From positions 1-64,000 of the forward strand of contig NZ_JAQZAM010000007.1 in NCBI RefSeq assembly GCF_028737215.1: 64,000 nt of DNA, read 5' to 3'. The notes below the pieces were generated by a model, which was not told the DNA's origin, did no database searches, and was given only the letters and a program-made list of their open reading frames with translations. This document shows, piece after piece, positions 25,205 to 36,760 of this stretch. This DNA comes from Actinomycetospora chibensis (GTDB lineage: Bacteria; Actinomycetota; Actinomycetes; Mycobacteriales; Pseudonocardiaceae). The position numbers and the translations under genes are program-made. Numbering within the stretch: the stretch's first letter is position 1; every line of letters begins with the position of its first letter.

Positions 25205-26221
25205 ATGGCCGTCGTCACGATGCGCCAGCTGCTGGACTCGGGTGTCCACTTCGGACACCAGACCCGCCGCTGGAACCCCAAGATGCGCCGCTTCATCTTC
25301 ACGGAGCGCAACGGCATCTACATCATCGACCTGCAGCAGACGCTGTCCTACGTCGATCGCGCCTACGAGTTCGTGAAGCAGACCGTCGCCCACGGCGGCA
25401 CGGTGCTCTTCGTCGGCACGAAGAAGCAGGCCCAGGAGGCCATCGACGAGCAGGCGCGTCGCGTCGGTATGCCGTTCGTCAACCAGCGCTGGCTGGGCGG
25501 CATGCTCACCAACTTCCAGACCGTGCACAAGCGCCTCCAGCGGCTCAAGGAGCTGGAGGCCATGGAGCAGAGCGGGGGCTTCGAGGGTCGCACCAAGAAG
25601 GAGATCCTCATGCTCACCCGCGAGCACGACAAGCTCGAGAAGACGCTCGGCGGCATCCGCGACATGGGCCGCGTGCCCAGCGCGGTGTGGGTGGTCGACA
25701 CCAAGAAGGAGCACATCGCGGTCGGTGAGGCCCGGAAGCTCAACATCCCGGTCGTCGCCATCCTCGACACCAACTGCGACCCCGACGAGGTCGACTACCC
25801 GATCCCGGGCAACGACGACGCGATCCGCTCGGCGGCCCTGCTGACCCGCGTGGTCGCGCAGGCCTGCGCCGACGGCCTCCAGGCCCGCGGCCAGCGCAAC
25901 GGCGGCGGCGACGGCGAGCGCGGCGAGGACGAGCCGCTGGCCGAGTGGGAGCAGGAGCTCATGGCGTCCGGCGGGGACGGCGCGAGCGCGCCGACCGGCC
26001 TGGAGCAGGGCAGCACCAGCTCCGCGGTCGACGCGCCGGGCGACTCGCCGGTCGCGACGCCCGAGGCCGAGGCCACCGCCGCGGCCGCCGGGGACGACAC
26101 CACGCCGGTCAGCCGCCCCGAGCGGACGGCCGGCACGGTCGACGCCAACTCGGAGAGCGACGACAACGCGATCGCCGCGGCGCCGGAGGCCGGTCAGGTC
26201 AACGGCACGCCGCAGGGCTGA
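25205..26221 (+). CDS. rpsB: 30S ribosomal protein S2 with long C-terminal tail
   Basis: 338 aa, about 70-100 longer than usual. S2 joins the 30S late and is needed for S1 docking. The core is intact: [105 protein letters not shown]. After about residue 225 comes a disordered Asp/Glu/Ala/Thr tail. Preceded by a strong purine-rich site. Forms the usual pair with tsf (53 bp gap). Confidence 0.98.
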
Positions 26222-26274
26222 CAGGCCCGCAGGCGACACGACAACGACGACGAGGAACGGACGAGAGCCGCACC

Positions 26275-27099
26275 ATGGCGAACTACACCGCTGCGGACGT
26301 GAAGAAGCTCCGGGACCTCACCGGGTCCGGGATGATGGACTGCAAGAAGGCCCTCGAGCAGTCCGAGGGCGACCTCGACGCGGCCGTCGAGGCGCTGCGC
26401 ATCAAGGGTGCGAAGGACGTGGGCAAGCGGGCCGGCCGCACCACCGCCAACGGCATCGTGGCGGCCCGTGACGGCGCGATGATCGAGCTCAACTCCGAGA
26501 CCGACTTCGTGGCCAAGAACGCCGACTTCGTGCAGCTCGCCGAGGACATCCTCGGCGTCGCGCTGGAGAACAGCACCAAGGACCTGGAGTCCCTCAAGGC
26601 CGCCACCCTCGGGCAGGGCACGGTCGACGAGAAGGTCCAGGAGCTCTCGGCGCGCATCGGCGAGAAGCTCGAGCTGCGTCGCGTGGCCGTGCTCGACGGC
26701 CCCACCGCGACGTACCTGCACCGGCGGTCCTCGGACCTGCCCCCGGCCATCGGCGTGGTCGTCGCCTACACCGGCGACGGGGACGACGCGTCGGAGGCGG
26801 CCCGCGGCGCGGCCATGCAGGTCGCGGCGGCGCGCCCGCTCTACACCACGCGCGACGAGGTCCCGAGCGACGTGGTGGAGAACGAGCGCCGCATCGCCGA
26901 GGCCACCGCCCGCGAGGAGGGCAAGCCCGAGAAGATCCTCGAGAAGATCGTCGAGGGTCGCCTCAACGGCTACTACAAGGACACCGTGCTCCTCGAGCAG
27001 GACTCGGTGTCGGTGGACAAGAAGTCGGTCGGCAAGGTGCTGGAGGAGGCGGGCGTCAGCGTCCGCACCTTCGCGCGCTTCGAGGTCGGCCAGCCCTGA
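26275..27099 (+). CDS. tsf: Elongation factor Ts
   Basis: 274 aa, standard actinobacterial length. EF-Ts is the guanine-nucleotide exchange factor of EF-Tu. N-terminal UBA-like domain with [28 protein letters not shown], then the signature [10 protein letters not shown] region ([19 protein letters not shown]), and the dimerisation/Tu-binding core ending [22 protein letters not shown] 26275 is 53 bp after rpsB. A strong hairpin follows the stop (27109-27148). Confidence 0.98.
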
Positions 27100-27108
27100 C
27101 GAACCGCT

Positions 27109-27148
27109 CACGGCGCCGGTGCCCGGGTGACCGGGCGCCGGCGCCGTG
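27109..27148 (+). terminator. Hairpin between tsf and pyrH
   Basis: Arms CACGGCGCCGGTGCCCGG (27109-27126) and CCGGGCGCCGGCGCCGTG (27131-27148) pair over 18 bp with one G-T, leaving a 4-nt loop GTGA. Very stable; no U-tract. Likely terminates or attenuates the highly expressed rpsB-tsf message before pyrH. Confidence 0.75.
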
Positions 27149-27185
27149 ACGGCGGCACCGCCGGAACCCCGTGGTGGAGGAGAGC

Positions 27186-27950
27186 GTGGCGAGTCCCCAG
27201 ACCGTGTCCGAGGCCGGTCCCGATGCCCGCCCCGGTCATCGCCGGGTCCTGCTCAAGCTCGGCGGTGAGATGTTCGGCGGCGGCGCCGTCGGCGTCGACC
27301 CCGTGGTCGTGCGGACCGTCGCTCGCCAGATCGCCGACGTCGTGGCCTCCGGCGTCGAGATCGCCGTCGTCATCGGCGGCGGCAACTTCTTCCGCGGCGA
27401 GGAGCTGCACCGCTACGGGATGCAGCGCCAGCGTGCCGACTACATGGGGATGCTCGGCACGGTCATGAACTGCCTGGCCCTGCAGGACTTCCTCGAGCGC
27501 GAGCACCACATCGACACCCGGGTGCAGACGGCCATCACGATGGGCCAGGTCGCCGAGTCCTACATCCCACGCCGCGCGATGCGCCACCTCGAGAAGGGTC
27601 GCGTCGTCATCTTCGGCGCCGGCGTGGGCATGCCCTACTTCTCGACCGACACCACCGCGGCGCAGCGTGCCCTCGAGATCGAGTGCGAGGTCGTCCTGCT
27701 GGCCAAGGGCGTGGACGGCGTGTTCACCGCCGACCCGAAGACCGACCCGACGGCGACGATGTACCACGAGATCTCCCACCGCGAGGTGCTGGAGAAGGGC
27801 CTGAAGGTCGCCGACGCGACCGCCTTCAGCCTCTGCATGGACAACAACATGCCGATCATGGTGTTCAACCTGCTCGTCGAGGGGAACATCGCCCGTGCGG
27901 TGCGGGGTGAGAGGATCGGGACGCTGGTCCACACCCCCTCCGGTCCCTGA
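27186..27950 (+). CDS. pyrH: Uridylate kinase PyrH
   Basis: About 254 aa. Hexameric UMP kinase (UMP + ATP to UDP + ADP), amino-acid-kinase fold. Motifs: [81 protein letters not shown] and [23 protein letters not shown] chose GTG 27186, which has GGAGG 5 nt upstream; GTG 27171 would add five residues. Followed after 11 bp by frr, the usual pyrH-frr order. Confidence 0.97.
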
Positions 27951-27961
27951 GGAGAGCCCAC

Positions 27962-28519
27962 ATGATCGACGAGACGCTCCTCGACGCCGAGGAGAAGATG
28001 GAGAAGGCGGTCAGCGTCGCCAAGGACGACCTCGGCGGTGTGCGCACCGGCCGGGCCAGCCCGGCGATGTTCAACCGCATCCAGGTCGAGTACTACGGCG
28101 CCTGGACCCCGCTCAACCAGCTGGCCTCGGTGCAGGTCCCCGAGGCCCGCATGGCCGTCATCAAGCCCTATGACGCCAGCCAGCTGCAGAGCATGGAGCG
28201 CGCGATCCGCGACTCCGACCTCGGCGTCAACCCCAGCAACGACGGCCAGATCATCCGCGTCGTGTTCCCGCAGCTCTCCGAGGAGCGGCGCAAGGACATG
28301 GTCAAGGTCGCACGCAGCAAGGGCGAGGACGCCAAGGTCTCGATCCGCAGCGTGCGCCGCACGGCGATGACCGAGCTGCAGCGCATCGTGAAGGACGGCG
28401 AGGCCGGCGAGGACGAGACCGGGCGGGCGGAGAAGGAGCTCGAATCCGTCACCTCCCGCTACGTCGCGGCGGTGGACGACCTGGTGAAGAACAAGGAAGC
28501 CGAGCTCCTCGAGGTCTGA
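27962..28519 (+). CDS. frr: Ribosome recycling factor
   Basis: 185 aa, standard length. RRF with EF-G splits post-termination ribosomes. Conserved: [38 protein letters not shown] at the start, [20 protein letters not shown] in the head domain, and [22 protein letters not shown] in the coiled tail. ATG 27962 with GGAGAG 7 nt upstream. Its stop is 1 bp from the cdsA start codon. Confidence 0.98.
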
Positions 28520-28520
28520 C

Positions 28521-29513
28521 GTGCCCTCCTCCGCGTCGCGGCCCCGACGGCCCGCCCCCACCGAGTCCCCGGCCTCCCCGGCGGACGCGACCCCGACCGA
28601 CGGAGTCGAGCCCGAGGACGCCGGCCGCCCCGAGACAGGCCGGCCCGAGGCAGGCCAGTCCGAGGGCGGCCAGTCCGCGGACGCCCCGAAGCGCAGCTCC
28701 CGCGCCGGCCGCAACCTGCCCGTCGCCATCGGGGTCGGGCTCGCGATGGGCGCCGTCGCCCTCACCGCGCTGCTCACGGTGCGCCAGACCTGGATCGGGA
28801 TCCTCGCCGTCACCGCCGTCATCGGGACGTGGGAGCTCTTCGGTGCCCTGCACCGGGGGGCCGGTATCCGTCTCTCGCGCGTCCCGGTGCTCATCGGGGG
28901 CCAGGCGATGATCTGGCTGGCGTGGCCGTTCGGCACCGAGGGCATCCTCGGCGCGCTGCTGGTCACGGTGCTCGGGTGCTTCCTGTGGCGCATGCGTCTC
29001 GGCGCGGGCGGATACGTGCGCGACGTCGGCGCCTCGATGCTCGTGCTCTGCTGGATCCCGCTGTGCATGGCGTTCGCGACCATGCTCGTCGTCCCCACCG
29101 ACGGCGCCGCGCGGGTGCTGACGTTCCTCATCGTCGTCATCTGCTCGGACACCGGCGGGTACGCCGCGGGTGCCCTGCTCGGCAAGCACCCGATGGCGCC
29201 GAAGATCAGCCCGAAGAAGTCCTGGGAGGGCCTCGTCGGGTCGATCGTCCTGGGCTCGGCGGGCGCCTGCCTGTCCGTCGCGTTCCTGCTCGACGACCGC
29301 TGGTGGTACGGCCTGATCATCGGCCCGCTGCTCGTCGCGACGGCGGTCACGGGCGATCTCGTCGAGTCGCTGATCAAGCGCGACCTCGGCATCAAGGACA
29401 TGGGCTCGGTGCTCCCGGGCCACGGCGGGCTGATGGAGCGCCTGGACTCGCTGGTCACCTCGGCCCCGATGGCCTGGCTCCTCCTCCTCGTCCTGGTACC
29501 AGTCCACGGGTGA
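28521..29513 (+). CDS. cdsA: Phosphatidate cytidylyltransferase CdsA
   Basis: 330 aa integral membrane enzyme making CDP-diacylglycerol from phosphatidate and CTP, the branch point for phospholipids. Residues 1-65 are a Pro/Glu/Gly-rich cytoplasmic extension with short repeats (GRPE, GQSEG). About eight hydrophobic segments follow. The signature is present: SPKKSWEGLVGS, TGDLVESLIKRDLGIKDMGSVLPGHGGLMERLDSL; the usual D in the last motif (MDR) is E here. GTG start directly after frr; the stop overlaps the next GTG (GTGA). Confidence 0.95.
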   Translation: MPSSASRPRRPAPTESPASPADATPTDGVEPEDAGRPETGRPEAGQSEGGQSADAPKRSSRAGRNLPVAIGVGLAMGAVALTALLTVRQTWIGILAVTAVIGTWELFGALHRGAGIRLSRVPVLIGGQAMIWLAWPFGTEGILGALLVTVLGCFLWRMRLGAGGYVRDVGASMLVLCWIPLCMAFATMLVVPTDGAARVLTFLIVVICSDTGGYAAGALLGKHPMAPKISPKKSWEGLVGSIVLGSAGACLSVAFLLDDRWWYGLIIGPLLVATAVTGDLVESLIKRDLGIKDMGSVLPGHGGLMERLDSLVTSAPMAWLLLLVLVPVHG

Positions 29514-30265: not shown

Positions 30266-30333
30266 TTGACGTGATCTCGCTCACGGCCGCAGACTCGTTG
30301 CGTCAATGACAACCGGTTGCGTATCTCGCAACC
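30266..30333 (+). promoter_or_regulatory. Promoter and palindromic operator of the demethylation operon
   Basis: TTGACG (30266-30271), an 18-bp spacer, CAGACT (30290-30295). Immediately downstream GTTGCG occurs at 30297-30302 and again in a perfect palindrome GGTTGCG-tatct-CGCAACC (30315-30333). Half-sites overlapping the expected start point suggest a repressor. The GTTGCG-n5-CGCAAC form resembles sites of IclR- or GntR-class regulators, but no regulator gene lies nearby, so the class is unproven. Confidence 0.65.
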
Positions 30334-30388
30334 TCGTCCGAGCGGTTCGGTGGAGGTGCCCCCGGACGCACGATGAAGTGGAGTGCCG

Positions 30389-31639
30389 ATGACGGACGTC
30401 CTGCCCAGCCGGGCCGCGGTCGACATCGCGCCGGGACCAGCCTCGACGGTGGTCACCGAACCGGCGGTCCTGCTGTACCCCCGCCTGCGGAAGTCGCCCT
30501 ACTTCTGGAAGTCACGGGCGCACGGCGTGGCGATGTACAGCGTCTACAACCACACCTATCACCCCCGGCACTACGGCGACCCGGTCGCCGAGTACTGGGC
30601 GCTGCTCGAGGGCGTGACCCTCTGGGACGTCGGCGTCGAGCGCCAGATCGAGATCACCGGCCCGGACGCCTTCGCGTTCACGAACATGCTCGTGCCCCGG
30701 GACCTGACGAAGTGCGCCGTGGGGCAGTGCAAGTACGTGTTCATCACCGCCCCGGACGGCGGGATCATCAACGACCCGGTCCTGTTGCGTCTCGAGGAGG
30801 ATCGCTTCTGGCTCTCGCTCGCCGACTCCGACGTCGGGCTCTGGGCGACGGGGCTGGCCCACGCCGGCGGCTGGGACGTGTCGGTCCGGGAGATCGACGT
30901 CGCTCCCGTGCAGGTCCAGGGCCCGAAGGCCAAGGCGCTGGTCACCGACCTCTTCGGGGCCGACGTCGCCGAGATGCCCTACTACCACCTGCGCCACGCC
31001 GTGCTGGACGACATGGAGGTCGTCATCAGCCGTACCGGCTACAGCGCGGAGATCGGGTACGAGATCTACCTGCACCAGGCCATCCGCGACGCGGGGAAGC
31101 TGTGGGACCGGGTGTGGGAGGCGGGCCGGCCGCACGACCTGCGCCCGATCGGCCCGTGCCACATCCGGCGCATCGAGGGCGGCATGCTCGCCTACGGCTG
31201 CGACATCACGCTCGACACCAATCCGCTCGAGGTCGGCTACGACTACACGTGGATGGTCGACCTCGACCAGGAGGCCGACTTCGTCGGCAAGGACGCCCTG
31301 ATCCGCGCCAAGCAGCGGGGCCTGGACCGCTCGCTGGTCGGTGTGGAGATCGGCGGGGCGCGGCTGGGCACGTTCAACGACGGCTCGATGATCGAGCCGT
31401 TCACGGTGCGGGACGGCGCGGGGGCCGTGGTCGGGTCGGTGACCAGCGCCTGCTGGTCGCCGCGGCTCGAGCGCAACATCGGGCTGGCCATGGTTGCCAC
31501 CCCCTCGACGCCGTTGGGGACGGCGCTGGTGGTGGACGCCGGCGCGGGGGACGGCGGGATGCTGGGGCGTGACGTCCGCGAGGCCGTCGTGGTCGAGAAG
31601 CCCTTCGTCGACCCGCGCAAGCAGACTCCCAAGGGCTGA
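30389..31639 (+). CDS. DmdA-like tetrahydrofolate-dependent aminomethyltransferase (demethylase)
   Basis: About 416 aa, GCV_T plus GCV_T_C fold. It resembles DMSP demethylase DmdA more than glycine-cleavage GcvT: RKSPYFWKSRAHGVAMYSVYNHTYHPRHYG, LWDVGVERQIEITGPDAF, MLVPRDLTKCAVGQCKYVFI, GGIINDPVLLRL, FWLSLADSDVGLW and RRIEGGMLAYGCDITLDTNPLEVG have DmdA counterparts. Family members move a methyl group from S-, O- or N-methyl substrates to tetrahydrofolate. ATG 30389 follows GTGGAG after 5 nt. The next gene, a methylene-THF reductase homologue, would consume the 5-methyl-THF product, which supports a methyl (not methylene) transfer. Substrate not determinable; DMSP is only one option. Confidence 0.85.
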   Translation: MTDVLPSRAAVDIAPGPASTVVTEPAVLLYPRLRKSPYFWKSRAHGVAMYSVYNHTYHPRHYGDPVAEYWALLEGVTLWDVGVERQIEITGPDAFAFTNMLVPRDLTKCAVGQCKYVFITAPDGGIINDPVLLRLEEDRFWLSLADSDVGLWATGLAHAGGWDVSVREIDVAPVQVQGPKAKALVTDLFGADVAEMPYYHLRHAVLDDMEVVISRTGYSAEIGYEIYLHQAIRDAGKLWDRVWEAGRPHDLRPIGPCHIRRIEGGMLAYGCDITLDTNPLEVGYDYTWMVDLDQEADFVGKDALIRAKQRGLDRSLVGVEIGGARLGTFNDGSMIEPFTVRDGAGAVVGSVTSACWSPRLERNIGLAMVATPSTPLGTALVVDAGAGDGGMLGRDVREAVVVEKPFVDPRKQTPKG

Positions 31640-31650
31640 GCGGGGCCGTC

Positions 31651-32469
31651 ATGGAGCCGGGATCCCTCGCCGCGCTGCTCGCCCGGCCGCGCTACGAGGT
31701 GGCGCCGGTGGCGGGCGTTCTCGCGGCGGCCGCCGACCTCCCCGCGGGGGCGACGGTCGCCGTCACCGCCTCGCCGAGCCGGGGTCCGGACGCCACGGTG
31801 GCGGTCGCCGAGGGGCTCGCGGCCCTCGGGTTCGCCCCCGTGCCGCACCTCGCGGCGCGCAGCCTGCGCGACCGCGGCGAGCTCGCCCTCCACCTCGACC
31901 GGCTCGCCGGGGCCGGCGTCCGCGACGTGTTCGTCGTGGGCGGCGACGCCCGGGAGCCTGCCGGGGAGTTCCCCGACGGGCTCGCGGTGCTCCGGGCGAT
32001 GGAGGAAATGGGCCAACGGCCGCCGCGCGTGGGCGTGCCGTCGTACCCGGACGGCCACCACCGGATCCCCACCGGCGTCCTCTGGACCGACCTGGCGGCC
32101 AAGGCAGCGCACGCCGACTACACCGTCACGCAGCTGTGCTTCGACGCCGAGGTCGTCGGGGCGTTCGTCGACGAGGCCCGCGGGCGGGGGATCCGTCTGC
32201 CCGTGATCGCCGGCGTCCCGGGTGTCGTCGACGCCGCGCGCCTGGTGCGCGTCAGCGTCCGCATCGGCGTCGCCGACGCCGTGCGCTTCGCCCGCGCGCA
32301 CCCCGGGACCGCGGGGTCCCTGCTGCGGTCGCGCTCGCACCGTTCCGACGACCTCGTCGAGGCCCTCGCCGCCGGCGGGAGCGACCTCGCGGGGCTGCAC
32401 GTCTTCACGTTCAACCAGATCGAGCCGACCGTGCGGTGGCTGACCGAGGCCCGCCGCGCGGCCGCCTGA
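31651..32469 (+). CDS. Methylenetetrahydrofolate reductase-like protein
   Basis: 272 aa TIM-barrel protein of the MTHFR superfamily. Recognisable: TVAVTASPSRGPDATVAVAEGLAALGF, VFVVGGDAREPAGEFPDGLAVLRAM, GVPSYPDGHHRIPTG, the TVTQLCFD strand, LPVIAGVPGVVD and LHVFTFNQIEPTVRW. It is shorter and diverged from housekeeping MetF. In operons with THF-dependent demethylases, such proteins oxidise 5-methyl-THF to 5,10-methylene-THF; I infer that direction here. Starts 11 bp after the methyltransferase, ends 30 bp before the flavoprotein. Confidence 0.82.
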   Translation: MEPGSLAALLARPRYEVAPVAGVLAAAADLPAGATVAVTASPSRGPDATVAVAEGLAALGFAPVPHLAARSLRDRGELALHLDRLAGAGVRDVFVVGGDAREPAGEFPDGLAVLRAMEEMGQRPPRVGVPSYPDGHHRIPTGVLWTDLAAKAAHADYTVTQLCFDAEVVGAFVDEARGRGIRLPVIAGVPGVVDAARLVRVSVRIGVADAVRFARAHPGTAGSLLRSRSHRSDDLVEALAAGGSDLAGLHVFTFNQIEPTVRWLTEARRAAA

Positions 32470-32499
32470 GGCTGGACACCGCGCTGGGAAGGACCCGCC

Positions 32500-35004
32500 G
32501 TGACACCGTTCCCTGACCGTGCCCAGGTCGTCGTGATCGGGGCCGGCATCGTCGGCAACTCCGTGGTGCACCACCTCGCGCGGCTGGGTTGGCGCGACAT
32601 CCTGCTGGTGGACAAGGGCCCGCTGCCCGACCCGGGCGGCTCGACCGGCCACGCGTCGAACTTCGTGTTCCCCGTCGACCACTCGCGGGAGATCACGCAG
32701 CTCACCGCGGACTCGTCGCGGCAGTACGCCGAGCTCGGAACCCTGACGACGTGCGGCGGCATCGAGGTGGCCCGCACCCCGGAGCGCGTCCAGGAGCTGC
32801 ACCGGCGCATGTCGTCGGCGCACGCGTGGGGCATCGACGCGGAGCTGATCACCCCGGCCGAGGTGGCGGAGAAGGTCCCGTTCCTCGACCCCACGGTCGT
32901 GCTCCGGGGGTTCTGGACGCCGTCGGTGGCGGTCGTCGACCCGCTGCGGGCCGGCGAGCTGATGCGCGAGCGGGCCACGGCCGCGGGCGCGCTCACGGTG
33001 TCGGCGATGACCGAGGTGCTGGCCGTCGACACCGACGACGGGCGCGTGACCCGGGTCCGCACCGACCGCGGCGACGTCGACACCGAGTACGTCGTCGTCG
33101 CATGCGGCGTGTGGAGCCCGCGCATCGCGGCGCTGGCGGGCGCGACGATCCCGCTCACGCCCGCCGTGCACCAGATGATCGACGTCGGCCCGATCGCCGA
33201 GCTCGCGGCCACCGGGCGGGAGATCGCGTTCCCGATCGTGCGCGACATGGACCCGCTGATGTACGAGCGGCAGAGCGGCGCCGACCTGGAGATCGGGTCG
33301 TACGCCCACCGCCCGATCCTCTGCGAGCCCGACGACATCCCGTCGCTGGCCGCTGCGGCGCTCTCGCCGACGCAGCTGCCGTTCACCCCCGACGACTTCG
33401 ACCCGCAGATGGAAGCGGCGCTCGAGCTGTTCCACCCCGTCCTCGACCGCCCCGACGCCGGCATCCGGCACGCCATCAACGGGCTGCTCTCCCTCACGCC
33501 CGACGGGCACCCGCTGCTCGGGGAGACCCCGGAGGTGCGTGGCCTCTGGTCCGCCGCCGCGGTGTGGATCAAGGAGGGGCCCGGTGTCGGCCGGCTCATC
33601 GCCGAGTGGATGACCGAGGGCGCCCCCGAGATCGACGCGGCCGCCTCCGACATCGCCCGCTTCGCCCCGCACGAGCGCACCCGCCACCACGTGCGCGCCC
33701 GCGCGTGCGAGGGCTTCAACAAGACCTACGGGATCACGCACCCGCGCGAGCAGTGGAGCTCCGACCGCGGGGTGCGCCGCTCGCCCTTCCACGAGCGCGA
33801 GGTGGCCCTCGGCGCGGAGTTCTTCGAGGTGGCGGGCTGGGAGCGCCCGCAGTGGTACGCGTCGAACGCGCCGCTGGTGGCGGAGCTCGGCGTGCCCGAC
33901 CGCCCGCACGAGTGGGACGCGCGCTGGTGGTCGCCGATCATCGACGCCGAGCACCTGGCGATGCGCCGGAGTGCGGCGATGATCGACCTCAGCGCGTTCT
34001 CCCAGTTCGACGTCCGCGGCCCCGGGGCGCTCGCGTACGTCCAGCACCTCACGGTCGCGCAGATGGACCGGCCCGTCGGGCGGGTGATCTACACGCCGGT
34101 CCTCGCCCCGGACGGCGGCTTCCGCAGCGACCTGACCGTCGTGCGGCTCGGCGATCGGCACTTCCGGGTGGTCACCGGCGGCTCCGACGGCGCGCGGGAC
34201 CTGGCGTGGTTCACCCGCCATCTGCCGCGCGACGGGTCGGTGACGCTGACCGACGTCACCTCGGCGGTCTGCACCCTCGGGCTCTGGGGCCCGCGGGCCC
34301 GCGACGTCCTCGCGGCGATCACCGACGAGGACGTGTCCGACGCCGCCTTCCCGTTCGCCACCGCGCGCACGATCACGATCGGGTCGATCCCGGTCCTCGC
34401 GCTACGCCTGTCCTACGTCGGCGAGCTCGGCTGGGAGCTGCACGCACCCACCGAGTGCGGGCTGCGCCTGTGGGACGCGGTCGCCGAGGCGGGCGCGCCG
34501 CACGGTCTCGTGCCGGCCGGCATCGGCGTCTACGGCACCACCGCGCGCATGGAGAAGGGCTACCGGCTCGTCGGCCACGAGCTCGACGCCGAGCACGGGC
34601 CGGTGGAGGCGGGGCTCGCTCTGCCCGGGCTGAAGTCCCAGGACTTCGTCGGCAAGGCCGCCTACACCAAGGCCCGCGAGGGCGAGCCCGAGGCGACGCT
34701 GTGCACGCTGACGCTCGACCCCGGCGATCCTGCGGGGCATCCACGCTTCCCGCAGGGCGGCGAGCCGGTCCTCACGCCCGACGGCGCCCGGATCACCGAC
34801 CGCCGGGGCCGGCCGTCGTTCGTCACCAGCGCGGGCGCCGGCCCGTCGCTCGGGACGTACCTGCTGATGGCGTACCTGCCGCCCTGGCACGCCGTCGAGG
34901 GCACCGGTCTGCTCGTCGAGTACCTGGGGGAGCGCTACCCGGTGACGGTCGCGCGGGCGGGCCGGACGCCGCTGTTCGACCCCGACGACACCCGGATGAG
35001 GTGA
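32500..35004 (+). CDS. Dimethylglycine/sarcosine dehydrogenase-like flavoprotein fused to a GcvT domain
   Basis: 834 aa. N-terminal DAO oxidoreductase domain with FAD motif VVVIGAGIVGNSVVHHLARLG, and H51 in GSTGHASN at the place where dimethylglycine dehydrogenase binds FAD covalently. FAO_M linker around 390-440 (FNKTYGITHPREQW), then GCV_T (SAMIDLSAFSQFDVRGPGAL) and GCV_T_C with ARMEKGYRLVGHELDAEHGPVEAGLAL. Such enzymes oxidise an N-methyl group, pass the one-carbon unit to THF as methylene-THF, and give electrons to ETF. The ETF genes follow 6 bp later, which fits well. GTG start with GGGAAGGA upstream. Substrate among methylated amines not fixed. Confidence 0.88.
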   Translation: MTPFPDRAQVVVIGAGIVGNSVVHHLARLGWRDILLVDKGPLPDPGGSTGHASNFVFPVDHSREITQLTADSSRQYAELGTLTTCGGIEVARTPERVQELHRRMSSAHAWGIDAELITPAEVAEKVPFLDPTVVLRGFWTPSVAVVDPLRAGELMRERATAAGALTVSAMTEVLAVDTDDGRVTRVRTDRGDVDTEYVVVACGVWSPRIAALAGATIPLTPAVHQMIDVGPIAELAATGREIAFPIVRDMDPLMYERQSGADLEIGSYAHRPILCEPDDIPSLAAAALSPTQLPFTPDDFDPQMEAALELFHPVLDRPDAGIRHAINGLLSLTPDGHPLLGETPEVRGLWSAAAVWIKEGPGVGRLIAEWMTEGAPEIDAAASDIARFAPHERTRHHVRARACEGFNKTYGITHPREQWSSDRGVRRSPFHEREVALGAEFFEVAGWERPQWYASNAPLVAELGVPDRPHEWDARWWSPIIDAEHLAMRRSAAMIDLSAFSQFDVRGPGALAYVQHLTVAQMDRPVGRVIYTPVLAPDGGFRSDLTVVRLGDRHFRVVTGGSDGARDLAWFTRHLPRDGSVTLTDVTSAVCTLGLWGPRARDVLAAITDEDVSDAAFPFATARTITIGSIPVLALRLSYVGELGWELHAPTECGLRLWDAVAEAGAPHGLVPAGIGVYGTTARMEKGYRLVGHELDAEHGPVEAGLALPGLKSQDFVGKAAYTKAREGEPEATLCTLTLDPGDPAGHPRFPQGGEPVLTPDGARITDRRGRPSFVTSAGAGPSLGTYLLMAYLPPWHAVEGTGLLVEYLGERYPVTVARAGRTPLFDPDDTRMR

Positions 35005-35010
35005 CGGCGG

Positions 35011-35766
35011 ATGGACGTCCTGGTCTGCGTGAAGCGCGTCCCGGCGGTCGGCGCGGAGATCCTGCTGACCGCGGACGGGACGGCGATCGACACCCGCCAC
35101 CTCGGCTTCACCATCGGGCCGCACGAGGAGTGCGCGGTCGAGGAGGCGGTGCGCATCGCCGAGCGCACCGGAGGCTCGGCGGGCGTGCTCACCGTCGGTC
35201 CGCCCGAGACCGAGGAGCAGCTGCGCTACGCGCTGTCGATGGGTGCCGACCACGCCGTCCGGGTCGACACCCCCGAGACCGACCCGGATCCCGAGGCCAC
35301 CGCCGCGGCCGTGACGGGCGCGCTGGGCGAGCTGCCGCCCTACGACCTCGTCCTGTTCGGCGAGGCCTCGGCGGACGCCGGGCACGCGCAGGTCGGGTTC
35401 CGGGTCGCCTGCGCGCTGCGGCGGCCGGTCGTCGGCGGGGTGAAGGGGATCGACCTCGACGGTGACCGGGTGCTCCTGCGCCGCGAGTCGCCCGAGGGCG
35501 TCGAGGTGCACGAGGCGCCGCTGCCGGCCGTCGCCGCCGTGCTGGAGGGGCTCAACCTGCCCCGTTATCCGACGATCAAGGGTCGGTTGCGGGCGAAGAA
35601 GGCGCCGATCCGCGTCCTGGACGGCCCGGGAGCGACCGGCGGGCTGCGGACCCTGCGGCTGCGCCACCGGCCCGAGGCGCGGGCGCGGACCGTGGTGCTG
35701 GGCCACGGGGCCGCGGCGGCACCGGCGGTCGTGGACGTGCTCGCCGAGCTGGGGATCGTGCCCTGA
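35011..35766 (+). CDS. etfB: Electron transfer flavoprotein beta subunit
   Basis: 251 aa. Small ETF subunit: DVLVCVKRVPAVGAEI start, DTRHLGFTIGPHEECAVEEAVRIAE, then YALSMGADHAVRV, GEASADAGHAQVGFRVACAL, and PRYPTIKGRLRAKKAPI, all family-typical. With EtfA it carries electrons from flavoprotein dehydrogenases to the quinone pool. Placed between the dehydrogenase and etfA, so it is likely a dedicated copy for the neighbouring flavoprotein rather than the housekeeping ETF. Confidence 0.93.
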   Translation: MDVLVCVKRVPAVGAEILLTADGTAIDTRHLGFTIGPHEECAVEEAVRIAERTGGSAGVLTVGPPETEEQLRYALSMGADHAVRVDTPETDPDPEATAAAVTGALGELPPYDLVLFGEASADAGHAQVGFRVACALRRPVVGGVKGIDLDGDRVLLRRESPEGVEVHEAPLPAVAAVLEGLNLPRYPTIKGRLRAKKAPIRVLDGPGATGGLRTLRLRHRPEARARTVVLGHGAAAAPAVVDVLAELGIVP

Positions 35767-35782
35767 GGGAGATGGTGCACTG

Positions 35783-36760
35783 ATGGTGCTGGTCGTGGTC
35801 GAGAGGGACGGCGACGGGACGCTGACCGAGGACTCCGCCGAGGTCCTCGCCGCCGCACGGGACCTCGCCGAGTCCCTCGGCGTCCCGGTCGGGGCCGTCG
35901 CGGTGGGGGAGCCGGGGGAGCTCCCCGACGACCTCGTCAAGCGGGGCGTCGGGCGCCTCCACCTCCTGGCACACGAGCTGCTCACCGACGGGTCGCCGGC
36001 ATGTCTGGGGGAGGCGCTCGCCGGGCTCGTGGCCGACCTGCGCCCCGCGGCCGTGCTCGCCCCGAGCACCGACCGGAGCACCGAGGCGATGGCGTGGGCC
36101 GCCGCGGAGCTGGGGATGCCGCTGGCCACGGCATGCACGGAGATCCGCCCCGGGGACGACGGCCCCTGGGAGGTCACCCGGGAGCGGGCGGGCGGGGTCC
36201 TGCTCGAGGACGCGGCCCTGACCGCGCCGATCCGGCTGTGCACGCTGCGCCCCGGGAGCCCGTCGCCGAGCGAGACGGCCGCGGCCGACGAGATGACGGT
36301 GCACGTCGTCGTGCCGGAGCTGCGGGCCTCGGTGCCGCGGGCCCGGCTGGTCGAGCGCCGGGAGCGCGCCGCCGGGATGACGCTGACCACCGCCCCGGTG
36401 GTGGTCGCGGGCGGGCGCGGGGTCGGCAGCTCCGAGGGCTACGCGGTGCTCGAGGAGCTGGCCGGTCTCGTCGGCGGGGCCGTCGGGTGCTCGCGGGTCG
36501 CCACCAACAACGGCTGGCGCCCCCACGCCGACCAGGTCGGGCTCACCGGCACCCGGATCAGCCCGGACCTCTACGTCGCCTGCGGGATCAGCGGCGCCAC
36601 CCAGCACTGGGTCGGCTGCATGAACGCCCGGTCGATCCTGGCGGTGAACACCGATCCCGAGGCGCCCATGGTCACGCGCGCGACGTGGGCGGTGATCGGC
36701 GACGTGCACGAGGTGCTGCCGGCCGTGGTCGACGAGATCCGGCGGCGATCCGGACGCTGA
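35783..36760 (+). CDS. etfA: Electron transfer flavoprotein alpha subunit
   Basis: 325 aa. The C-terminal FAD domain is clear: VVVAGGRGVGSSEGYAVLEELAGLVGGAVGCSRVA, HADQVGLTGTRISPDLYVACGISGATQHWVGCMNARSILAVNTDPEAPM. The N-terminal half is diverged but ends with the expected strands. ATG 35783 has GAGGGAG upstream; the 16-bp junction after etfB repeats the start region (GATGGTGC appears twice), which offers an out-of-frame decoy ATG at 35772. Last gene of the one-carbon operon; 67 bp to the next start. Confidence 0.92.
   Translation: MVLVVVERDGDGTLTEDSAEVLAAARDLAESLGVPVGAVAVGEPGELPDDLVKRGVGRLHLLAHELLTDGSPACLGEALAGLVADLRPAAVLAPSTDRSTEAMAWAAAELGMPLATACTEIRPGDDGPWEVTRERAGGVLLEDAALTAPIRLCTLRPGSPSPSETAAADEMTVHVVVPELRASVPRARLVERRERAAGMTLTTAPVVVAGGRGVGSSEGYAVLEELAGLVGGAVGCSRVATNNGWRPHADQVGLTGTRISPDLYVACGISGATQHWVGCMNARSILAVNTDPEAPMVTRATWAVIGDVHEVLPAVVDEIRRRSGR

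Follow-up and report, generated by a model that had tools for sequence, protein, structure and literature searches.

The window analysed here is the whole stretch of 64,000 nucleotides at the start of contig NZ_JAQZAM010000007.1 from Actinomycetospora chibensis. It carries on the plus strand a run of five adjacent genes, namely dmd, an MTHFR-like gene, a gene for a fused flavoenzyme resembling dimethylglycine dehydrogenase (DMGDH), etfB and etfA, preceded by a tandem operator (Table 1). The original prediction, made from the sequence alone, had described this gene set and order with a spacing of 6–30 bp, and the gaps of 11, 30, 6 and 16 bp in gene order bear it out; its family names also match the Pfam and NCBIfam results for all five proteins.

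Table 1 Coordinates of the operator and the five genes in the window
Feature	Coordinates	Strand	Pfam match	Remarks
Tandem operator	30295..30334			Two 21-bp sites 19 bp apart: 30295-30315 (weaker) and 30314-30334
dmd	30389..31639	+	GCV_T + GCV_T_C	ATG start at 30389, GTG at 30383 as alternative; DmdA-superfamily tetrahydrofolate (THF)-dependent methyltransferase, predicted betaine:THF methyltransferase
MTHFR-like gene	31651..32469	+	MTHFR (weak)	Predicted 5-methyl-THF oxidation; E16, D99 and Q161 kept in family
DMGDH-like fused flavoenzyme gene	32500..35004	+	DAO + FAO_M + GCV_T + GCV_T_C	H51, H224, Y255 and D544 conserved
etfB, electron transfer flavoprotein (ETF) beta subunit	35011..35766	+	ETF	
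etfA, ETF alpha subunit	35783..36760	+	ETF + ETF_alpha	

Sequence and model comparisons place dmd in the DmdA superfamily, as a member that is neither DmdA proper nor GcvT. Its best NCBIfam match was the DmdA model NF009133 with 318.7 bits, below the curated cut-off of 410, while Phaeobacter DmdA, the positive control, reached 600.3 bits. The GcvT models NF001567 and TIGR00528 gave 173.5 and 146.1 bits (cut-offs 300 and 235.85), compared with 421.2 and 323.4 bits for the host's own GcvT, encoded on contig C2, and the LigM and DesA models gave 45 and 54 bits (cut-offs 580 and 800). The best solved relative, 3tfh (1e-66), titled DMSP-dependent demethylase of P. ubique (DMSP, dimethylsulfoniopropionate), was also the structure closest to the AlphaFold model of dmd (mean pLDDT 81.6; Z 44.8, rmsd 1.8, 365 aligned), followed by the best GcvT (Z 40.9), with YgfZ, Iba57 and LigM-type folds (LigM, Z 28.9) ranking lower. 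In a midpoint-rooted tree of 44 rows, the base of which lacks resolution and for which the program gave a long-branch warning, one group of 37 rows (100/99) took in dmd, DmdA, the haloarchaeal and OsmC-linked rows and most of the distal ones, to the exclusion of GcvT, four paralogues and the fused flavoenzymes. Support for the actinomycete dmd clade was 89/97, and DmdA formed a separate clade (100/100). The original prediction had named clustering of the first gene within GcvT as a refuting result, and the tree, run against DmdA and GcvT as it had proposed, does not show it. A housekeeping glycine-cleavage T protein with unrelated neighbours would share the GCV_T fold of dmd, but the GcvT score is far below that of the host's own protein, the tree position is outside GcvT and the neighbours are conserved, and we give this explanation next to no credence.

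The segments Y-x-[VI]-Y-N-H, NDP and ADSD are common to dmd and DmdA, and the dmd family together with four of five haloarchaeal relatives has H258-x-R260 where four DmdA have [LG]-x-E, which serves as a lead only. The position of the Trp at the DMSP site of DmdA (W171; PMC7487153) is Tyr in 69 of 70 actinomycete dmd rows; three roseobacter DmdA also have Tyr, and the tryptophan was dropped as a marker of DmdA identity. Since DmdA is the best NCBIfam and PDB match and the nearest structure to the model, dmd could be a true DmdA in a DMSP demethylation operon, yet its score falls short of the cut-off and its clade is distinct. In addition, the operon lacks the acyl-CoA ligase, dehydrogenase and DmdD found beside DmdA in the roseobacter-plasmid loci L100 and L104, and DMGDH and ETF would have no evident role for methylmercaptopropionate, which together make the DMSP explanation very unlikely. 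The absence of an acyl-CoA ligase from the operon, which the original prediction had pointed out, holds in this comparison and favours an amine. Two further observations were made on relatives in the tree. The DmdA relatives of L095 and L097 (Phaeobacter and Loktanella plasmids; 47–48% identity to dmd) lie in a common cassette with an Lrp regulator, OsmC, enoyl-CoA hydratase and acyl-CoA synthetase, and perhaps represent another sulfonium or betaine demethylase. In the Rubrobacter-type loci L062:14544-15830 and L075:14414-15691, a second GcvT-family paralogue, distant from dmd in the tree, lies near a gene resembling monomeric sarcosine oxidase (MSOX).

The MTHFR-like protein matched the Pfam MTHFR family weakly (37.5 bits, cut-off 24), and its best solved match was 7xg9 (1e-26), followed by 1v93 (5e-11). 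We take 7xg9 to be the MTHFR of Sphingobium SYK-6, although the literature search did not confirm this. The residues that we assume to be the catalytic positions of MTHFR are kept in the family (E16 in 48/48 rows with 7 gaps, D99 in 53/53 with 2 gaps and Q161 in 55/55), and 7xg9 carries matching residues. The direction from methyl-THF towards oxidation, as first proposed, is supported by these residues and by the best solved match, and a classical MTHFR is encoded elsewhere in the host, on contig C2. FTHFS (formate-THF ligase), known as LigH in the LigM arrangement, would also fit a module for the O-demethylation of methoxylated aromatics. In SYK-6, the MTHFR favours methyl-THF oxidation and coevolved with LigM (PMC13001107), and a THF-dependent GcvT-like enzyme with an MTHFR that best matches 7xg9 recalls that pair. 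However, the LigM and DesA scores of dmd are an order below their cut-offs, LigM structures rank below DmdA (Z 28.9 versus 44.8) and the partner genes are amine-specific, which leaves only a slim chance for an aromatic substrate. In the Nocardiopsis-type loci L044, L047, L049, L051, L064, L069 and L077, the window-type MTHFR gives way to a different MTHFR, encoded divergently beside dmd together with a MetV-like PF12225 protein, as a non-orthologous replacement of the presumed methyl-THF oxidase.

The third protein joins its four domains in a single chain, as in dimethylglycine oxidase (DMGO) and DMGDH. Its H51 aligns with the histidine in the GGST.HA motif of DMGO, and H51, H224, Y255 and D544 are each invariant in 58/58 relatives of both partner types, in line with the covalent-FAD histidine predicted at H51; by the residues of 1pj5, we take these four to be the FAD-linking His and the catalytic His, Tyr and Asp. 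The window enzyme shares 40% identity with the DMGO of the host itself, which is encoded on contig C9 and matches the solved Arthrobacter globiformis DMGO over its full length (1200 bits). The fused partners of dmd are of two types. Eight aligned DMGO-type partners, among 13, are 53–59% identical to the host DMGO, and this type has soxB and soxA in 10/13 loci and ETF in none; the DMGDH type, to which the window belongs, has ETF in 30/49 loci. Adjacency to a sarcosine oxidase, considered as a general rule, holds for most DMGO-type loci and fails for the window type.

The gene set recurs in many actinobacterial genera, which makes the operon more than a chance arrangement. A scan of one genome per species with six peptide-pattern seeds gave 97 confirmed relatives, of which 80 loci were kept, and neighbour genes were predicted by a codon-score script and then clustered. 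The counts below cover 72 actinomycete loci (L010-L081), which are redundant within genera and include 11 from Actinomycetospora; eight distal relatives (L082-L089; 53–55% identity, mostly without partner genes) stand outside them. An MTHFR was found nearby in 61/72 loci (54 of the window type and 7 of the different type with the MetV-like partner) and a fused oxidoreductase in 62/72 (49 DMGDH and 13 DMGO type), so that the suggested survey of co-occurrence in actinobacteria finds the set conserved together. IclR was present in 41/72 loci, etfBA in 30/72, soxB plus soxA in 13/72, MSOX in 3/72, BCCT in 1/72 and a Rieske relative in 2/72, close only in L021, while FTHFS, present in 44/72, was found in 44/61 loci outside Actinomycetospora and 0/11 inside. 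Representatives were checked against family models: FTHFS scored 831 bits (cut-off 652), the MetV-like protein matched PF12225, the MSOX-like protein scored 521 bits on the N-methyl-tryptophan-oxidase model (cut-off 257), and the BCCT betaine transporter, at 593 bits, was just below its cut-off of 650. In L061, a BCCT transporter and an MSOX-like gene both lie near dmd. In an even class sample, dmd (E 1e-60) was present in 16/394 genomes, a patchy distribution of the kind that a catabolic trait would show.

Within the genus, A. callitridis shares the gene order with the window at 97% protein identity, and nine Actinomycetospora loci, the window counted, have the operon in one shared setting: two upstream genes, one from its sequence presumably cdsA-like and the other for an S-adenosylmethionine methyltransferase, and a common set of downstream genes, one of them presumably rlmN-like. 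The flanks are different or cut off in L013, L015 and L016, and in L015 (Actinomycetospora strain TBRC 11914) the operon lacks the MTHFR gene and has other genes alongside. Upstream of the operon in the window, at 25205-29513, lies what we take from the sequences to be an ordinary rpsB-tsf-pyrH-frr-cdsA cluster.

The operator has a core of TTGCGtatctCGCAA at 30317-30331 with the pattern TTGCG-N5-CGCAA, centred in an inverted repeat at 30315-30333 (GGTTGCG-TATCT-CGCAACC) with perfectly matching 7-bp arms; a direct copy, matching at 72%, precedes it by 19 bp. A matrix was trained on 23 loci outside Actinomycetospora, and a site was counted if it lay no more than 400 bp upstream of either dmd or the gene for the fused enzyme. 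The two sites of the window scored 12.2 and 19.9, the latter reached by 0/1000 promoter shuffles, and a site was present in 39/49 held-out and 23/23 training loci versus 8/406 other genes of the same loci, with a spacing of 19 bp (34 pairs) or 18 bp (12 pairs) between most neighbouring sites. Where other operon genes come before dmd, the site precedes the leader gene, and in L052, L066 and L076 it lies between soxB and DMGO; among the distal loci, 1/8 has a site. The claim that a single promoter with an operator controls the genes thus stands for the operator, as a repeat conserved in other genera, while the single promoter is presumed, since a sigma-70-type scan upstream of the operon found none.

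A matrix scan of 137,003 bases of the host genome gave nine positions scoring at least 12, versus 0–3 in ten dinucleotide shuffles, and eight of them fall in three promoters, with two at dmd, four at a Rieske/reductase pair and two at a ferredoxin/MFS pair; the best score of each promoter was reached by 0/1000 local shuffles. The exact pattern was uninformative over the whole host genome (15 sites at one mismatch or fewer versus 16 for the control), in which three perfect sites occur, one of them at dmd. The IclR-type protein encoded on C9 is 51–57% identical to its counterparts in the dmd loci of Saccharopolyspora, Sciscionella and Pseudonocardia and about 40–50% identical to the rest of 39 hits, and it probably binds the tandem operator.

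The C9 island that holds these genes contains glyA, soxBDAG, DMGO, a cyclodeaminase-like gene, a GntR gene, sdaA, purU and iclR, followed by a GbcA-related Rieske oxygenase, a ferredoxin reductase, an MFS transporter and a Rieske ferredoxin. Of these, the GntR gene, sdaA and the small sox subunits were identified by eye. The host FTHFS is on contig C22. By its gene content, the species seems to combine the dmd route with one that relies on an oxygenase. To call the gene set chemically complete, as the original prediction did, goes too far, with FTHFS on C22 and the sarcosine oxidase genes on C9. Oxygen-using and oxygen-free enzymes also appear to be physically linked outside Actinomycetospora, as dmd and MTHFR adjoin a GbcA-like Rieske oxygenase in L021:9926-14745 (Pseudonocardia acaciae) and in L084, a Proteobacteria metagenome-assembled genome (MAG). 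A separate cluster at about 36.8–51.5 kb of C9 (L090:6769-20000 and L091:155-1477) looks like an N-methylglutamate (methylamine) pathway by its gene content, with a second soxBDAG-like set, a glutamine synthetase of type III that passes the cut-off of TIGR03105, permease, glutamine-amidotransferase and FMN glutamate-synthase genes and a gene judged PurU-like by eye; an operator-like site (14.7) lies upstream of its amidotransferase gene.

Sarcosine oxidases are also associated with dmd at the genome level. In the class sample (16 dmd versus 378 other genomes), Fisher tests uncorrected for kinship gave p 3e-4 for SoxB (8/16 versus 44/378), p 1e-4 for the monomeric-oxidase family (13/16 versus 121/378) and p 8e-6 for either type (15/16 versus 143/378). 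Among 48 carrier genomes drawn from the 80 loci (24, mostly MAGs and distal, six more, L050 and L074 were left out), 26 had soxB, 31 the monomeric type and 13 neither, and 32 had any Rieske relative, including 20 with a close one (at least 60% identity), all 20 with soxB. A sarcosine oxidase candidate was present in 9/9 genomes with a DMGO partner, 4/4 with no partner and 22/35 with a DMGDH partner. In ten further carrier genomes (L061, L079 and L082-L089), the fused enzyme was found in five, and L079, L088 and L089 have a window-type DMGDH (60–61% identity) elsewhere in the genome and not next to dmd.

The original prediction had offered a quaternary amine as an alternative to DMSP, and the amine is favoured both by the soxBDAG and DMGO genes beside dmd in some loci and by the operator common to the GbcA-like oxygenase in the host. 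No dmd alignment column splits 13 DMGO-type from 48 DMGDH-type loci (85% rule), so a single dmd substrate is likely, and for one substrate that yields dimethylglycine, glycine betaine is the simplest reading. Taking the gene content and its conservation into account, we consider it likely that glycine betaine is the natural methyl donor of the operon in an oxygen-independent, folate-linked catabolism. Dmd would move a betaine methyl to THF, giving dimethylglycine and 5-methyl-THF, which the MTHFR-like protein, with its retained residues, would oxidise to 5,10-methylene-THF. The fused flavoenzyme, with dimethylglycine as the presumed substrate, would then demethylate it oxidatively, with the methylene captured on THF and the electrons passed to the dedicated ETF, and sarcosine would be handled by the SoxBDAG encoded on C9, while one-carbon units could exit via FTHFS, PurU or GlyA. 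The common operator before the operon and the GbcA-like Rieske system would bring oxygen-using and oxygen-sparing first steps into one regulon. In published work, an fhs null mutant of Ruegeria did not grow on betaine (PMC4744692), and the predicted path for betaine is incomplete in Arthrobacter Rue61a, a strain that grows on it (PMC3534580).

Several observations weigh against betaine as the donor. At the level of single loci, MTHFR is missing in 11/72 (six Microbacteriaceae, three Nesterenkonia, L015 and L079), the fused enzyme in 10/72 (L021, L037, L039, L050, L065, L067, L079, L026, L068 and L069, the last three on contigs that end close by) and the upstream site in 10/72 (L039, L041, L042, L043, L046, L050, L057, L061, L078 and L079), although L057 and L078 do have operator sites, and it is the dmd gene call there that is overlong or absent. 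In five of the eight distal relatives (L082, L083 and L085-L087), the whole genome lacks a fused enzyme, the DMGDH type of the window adjoins sox in 0/49 loci, and neither SoxB nor MSOX was found at the thresholds used in 13/48 carrier genomes, all of the DMGDH type. The main gap lies in these 13 genomes, in which sarcosine may be taken by the DMGDH type as well or by another enzyme, or the substrate may be a different one. In the host, the ninth operator position precedes the glutamine-amidotransferase gene of the methylamine-like cluster, the glyA-sox and iclR promoters on C9 have no operator site (5.6 and −5.6), and no ETF-QO (PF21162) match was found, in a search that did not extend to an EtfD-type acceptor as known from mycobacteria. 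The C9 Rieske protein scores far below the GbcA cut-off (233 versus 670 bits), and among solved structures it best matches 3vca and 4qup, which we take to be stachydrine demethylases. Moreover, a Rieske/DMGO/Sox route is already present in the host, and the operon is not required for betaine alone.

Part of this pattern would fit proline betaine (stachydrine) or another N-methylated quaternary amino acid, from which dmd would yield a tertiary amine and the DMGDH-like enzyme a secondary amine with no need for a sarcosine oxidase. The absence of sox beside the window-type enzyme, the 13 DMGDH-type genomes without both sarcosine oxidase types, and the PDB matches of the Rieske protein that shares the operator, which presumably are stachydrine enzymes, are all consistent with such a substrate. 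Against it, no column separates the dmd of the two partner types, the host Rieske gene lies a few genes from glyA-soxBDAG-DMGO-sdaA-purU, 20/20 dmd genomes with a close Rieske relative also have soxB, and no proline-catabolism family was recognised by eye among cluster starts, for which no family search was made. On balance, we regard stachydrine as an unlikely, though plausible, substrate.

Relatives of dmd extend beyond the actinomycetes. Plasmids of Haloarcula hispanica, Haladaptatus and Salinigranum carry a 41–42% identical relative with MTHFR and two annotated FAD-dependent oxidoreductase genes, and FTHFS in two of the three regions; the Halomicrococcus region has MTHFR and BCCT, and the stretch read around the relative in Haloarcula GH36 has no MTHFR, FAD oxidoreductase, FTHFS or BCCT. 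Overall, the five haloarchaeal plasmid regions include MTHFR in four, the two oxidoreductase genes in three, FTHFS in two and BCCT in one. The first match of one FAD enzyme of L099 was DMGO, and the first FAD enzymes of L098 and L105 align with it at 83–86%; part of the second enzyme of L099 aligns at 53%, and for L098 and L105 the second enzyme is known from its annotation. A genome paper of 2011 had already pointed to DMGO-like genes close to haloarchaeal BCCT transporters and left open the compounds used (PMC3102087).

Extending betaine as the donor to these relatives, we put at about even the chances that dmd founds a family of direct betaine:THF methyltransferases, using no corrinoid, oxygen or homocysteine, in halotolerant Actinobacteria and, in diverged form, in folate-using haloarchaea. 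Two or all three betaine methyls would pass to folate and be burned for energy, and in Actinomycetospora dmd would be the oxygen-sparing counterpart of a Rieske betaine oxygenase, with both controlled through one IclR-type operator. A search of the open-licence PMC literature, which is partial in coverage, found no description of a THF-dependent betaine demethylase, and within the literature searched such a methyltransferase would, if confirmed, represent a new enzyme activity. It would explain how glycine betaine, a widespread osmolyte and salt protectant, is used in an oxygen-sparing, energy-conserving way in halotolerant actinobacteria and perhaps haloarchaea, and some annotations as 'GcvT' or 'DMSP demethylase' in these organisms may be misleading.

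Known systems share parts of this arrangement. In SAR11, a gcvT-like gene near betaine transporters was postulated to act in betaine metabolism and another lies beside metF, while the betaine step was assigned to BHMT, and the portion of that source covered here shows no THF-dependent betaine enzyme (PMC3160333). DmdA of Pelagibacter and Roseobacter is like dmd in its fold, in the Y-x-[VI]-Y-N-H, NDP and ADSD segments and in the predicted redox-neutral methyl transfer to THF, and dmd differs by its score below the cut-off, its separate clade, H258-x-R260 in place of [LG]-x-E and its other neighbours. GbcAB and BHMT have the proposed first product, dimethylglycine, in common with the operon, and GbcA requires oxygen and BHMT homocysteine, whereas THF is the proposed acceptor in the window. 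A. globiformis DMGO and mammalian DMGDH are likewise four-domain fused flavoenzymes with H51, H224, Y255 and D544 conserved, from which the window enzyme differs by its 40% identity to the host DMGO and the dedicated ETF alongside. Finally, the LigM-MTHFR pair of Sphingobium SYK-6 similarly couples a THF-dependent demethylase to an MTHFR running towards methylene-THF (PMC13001107), from which the window operon would differ by acting on a quaternary amine rather than an aromatic ether and by its additional DMGDH and ETF.

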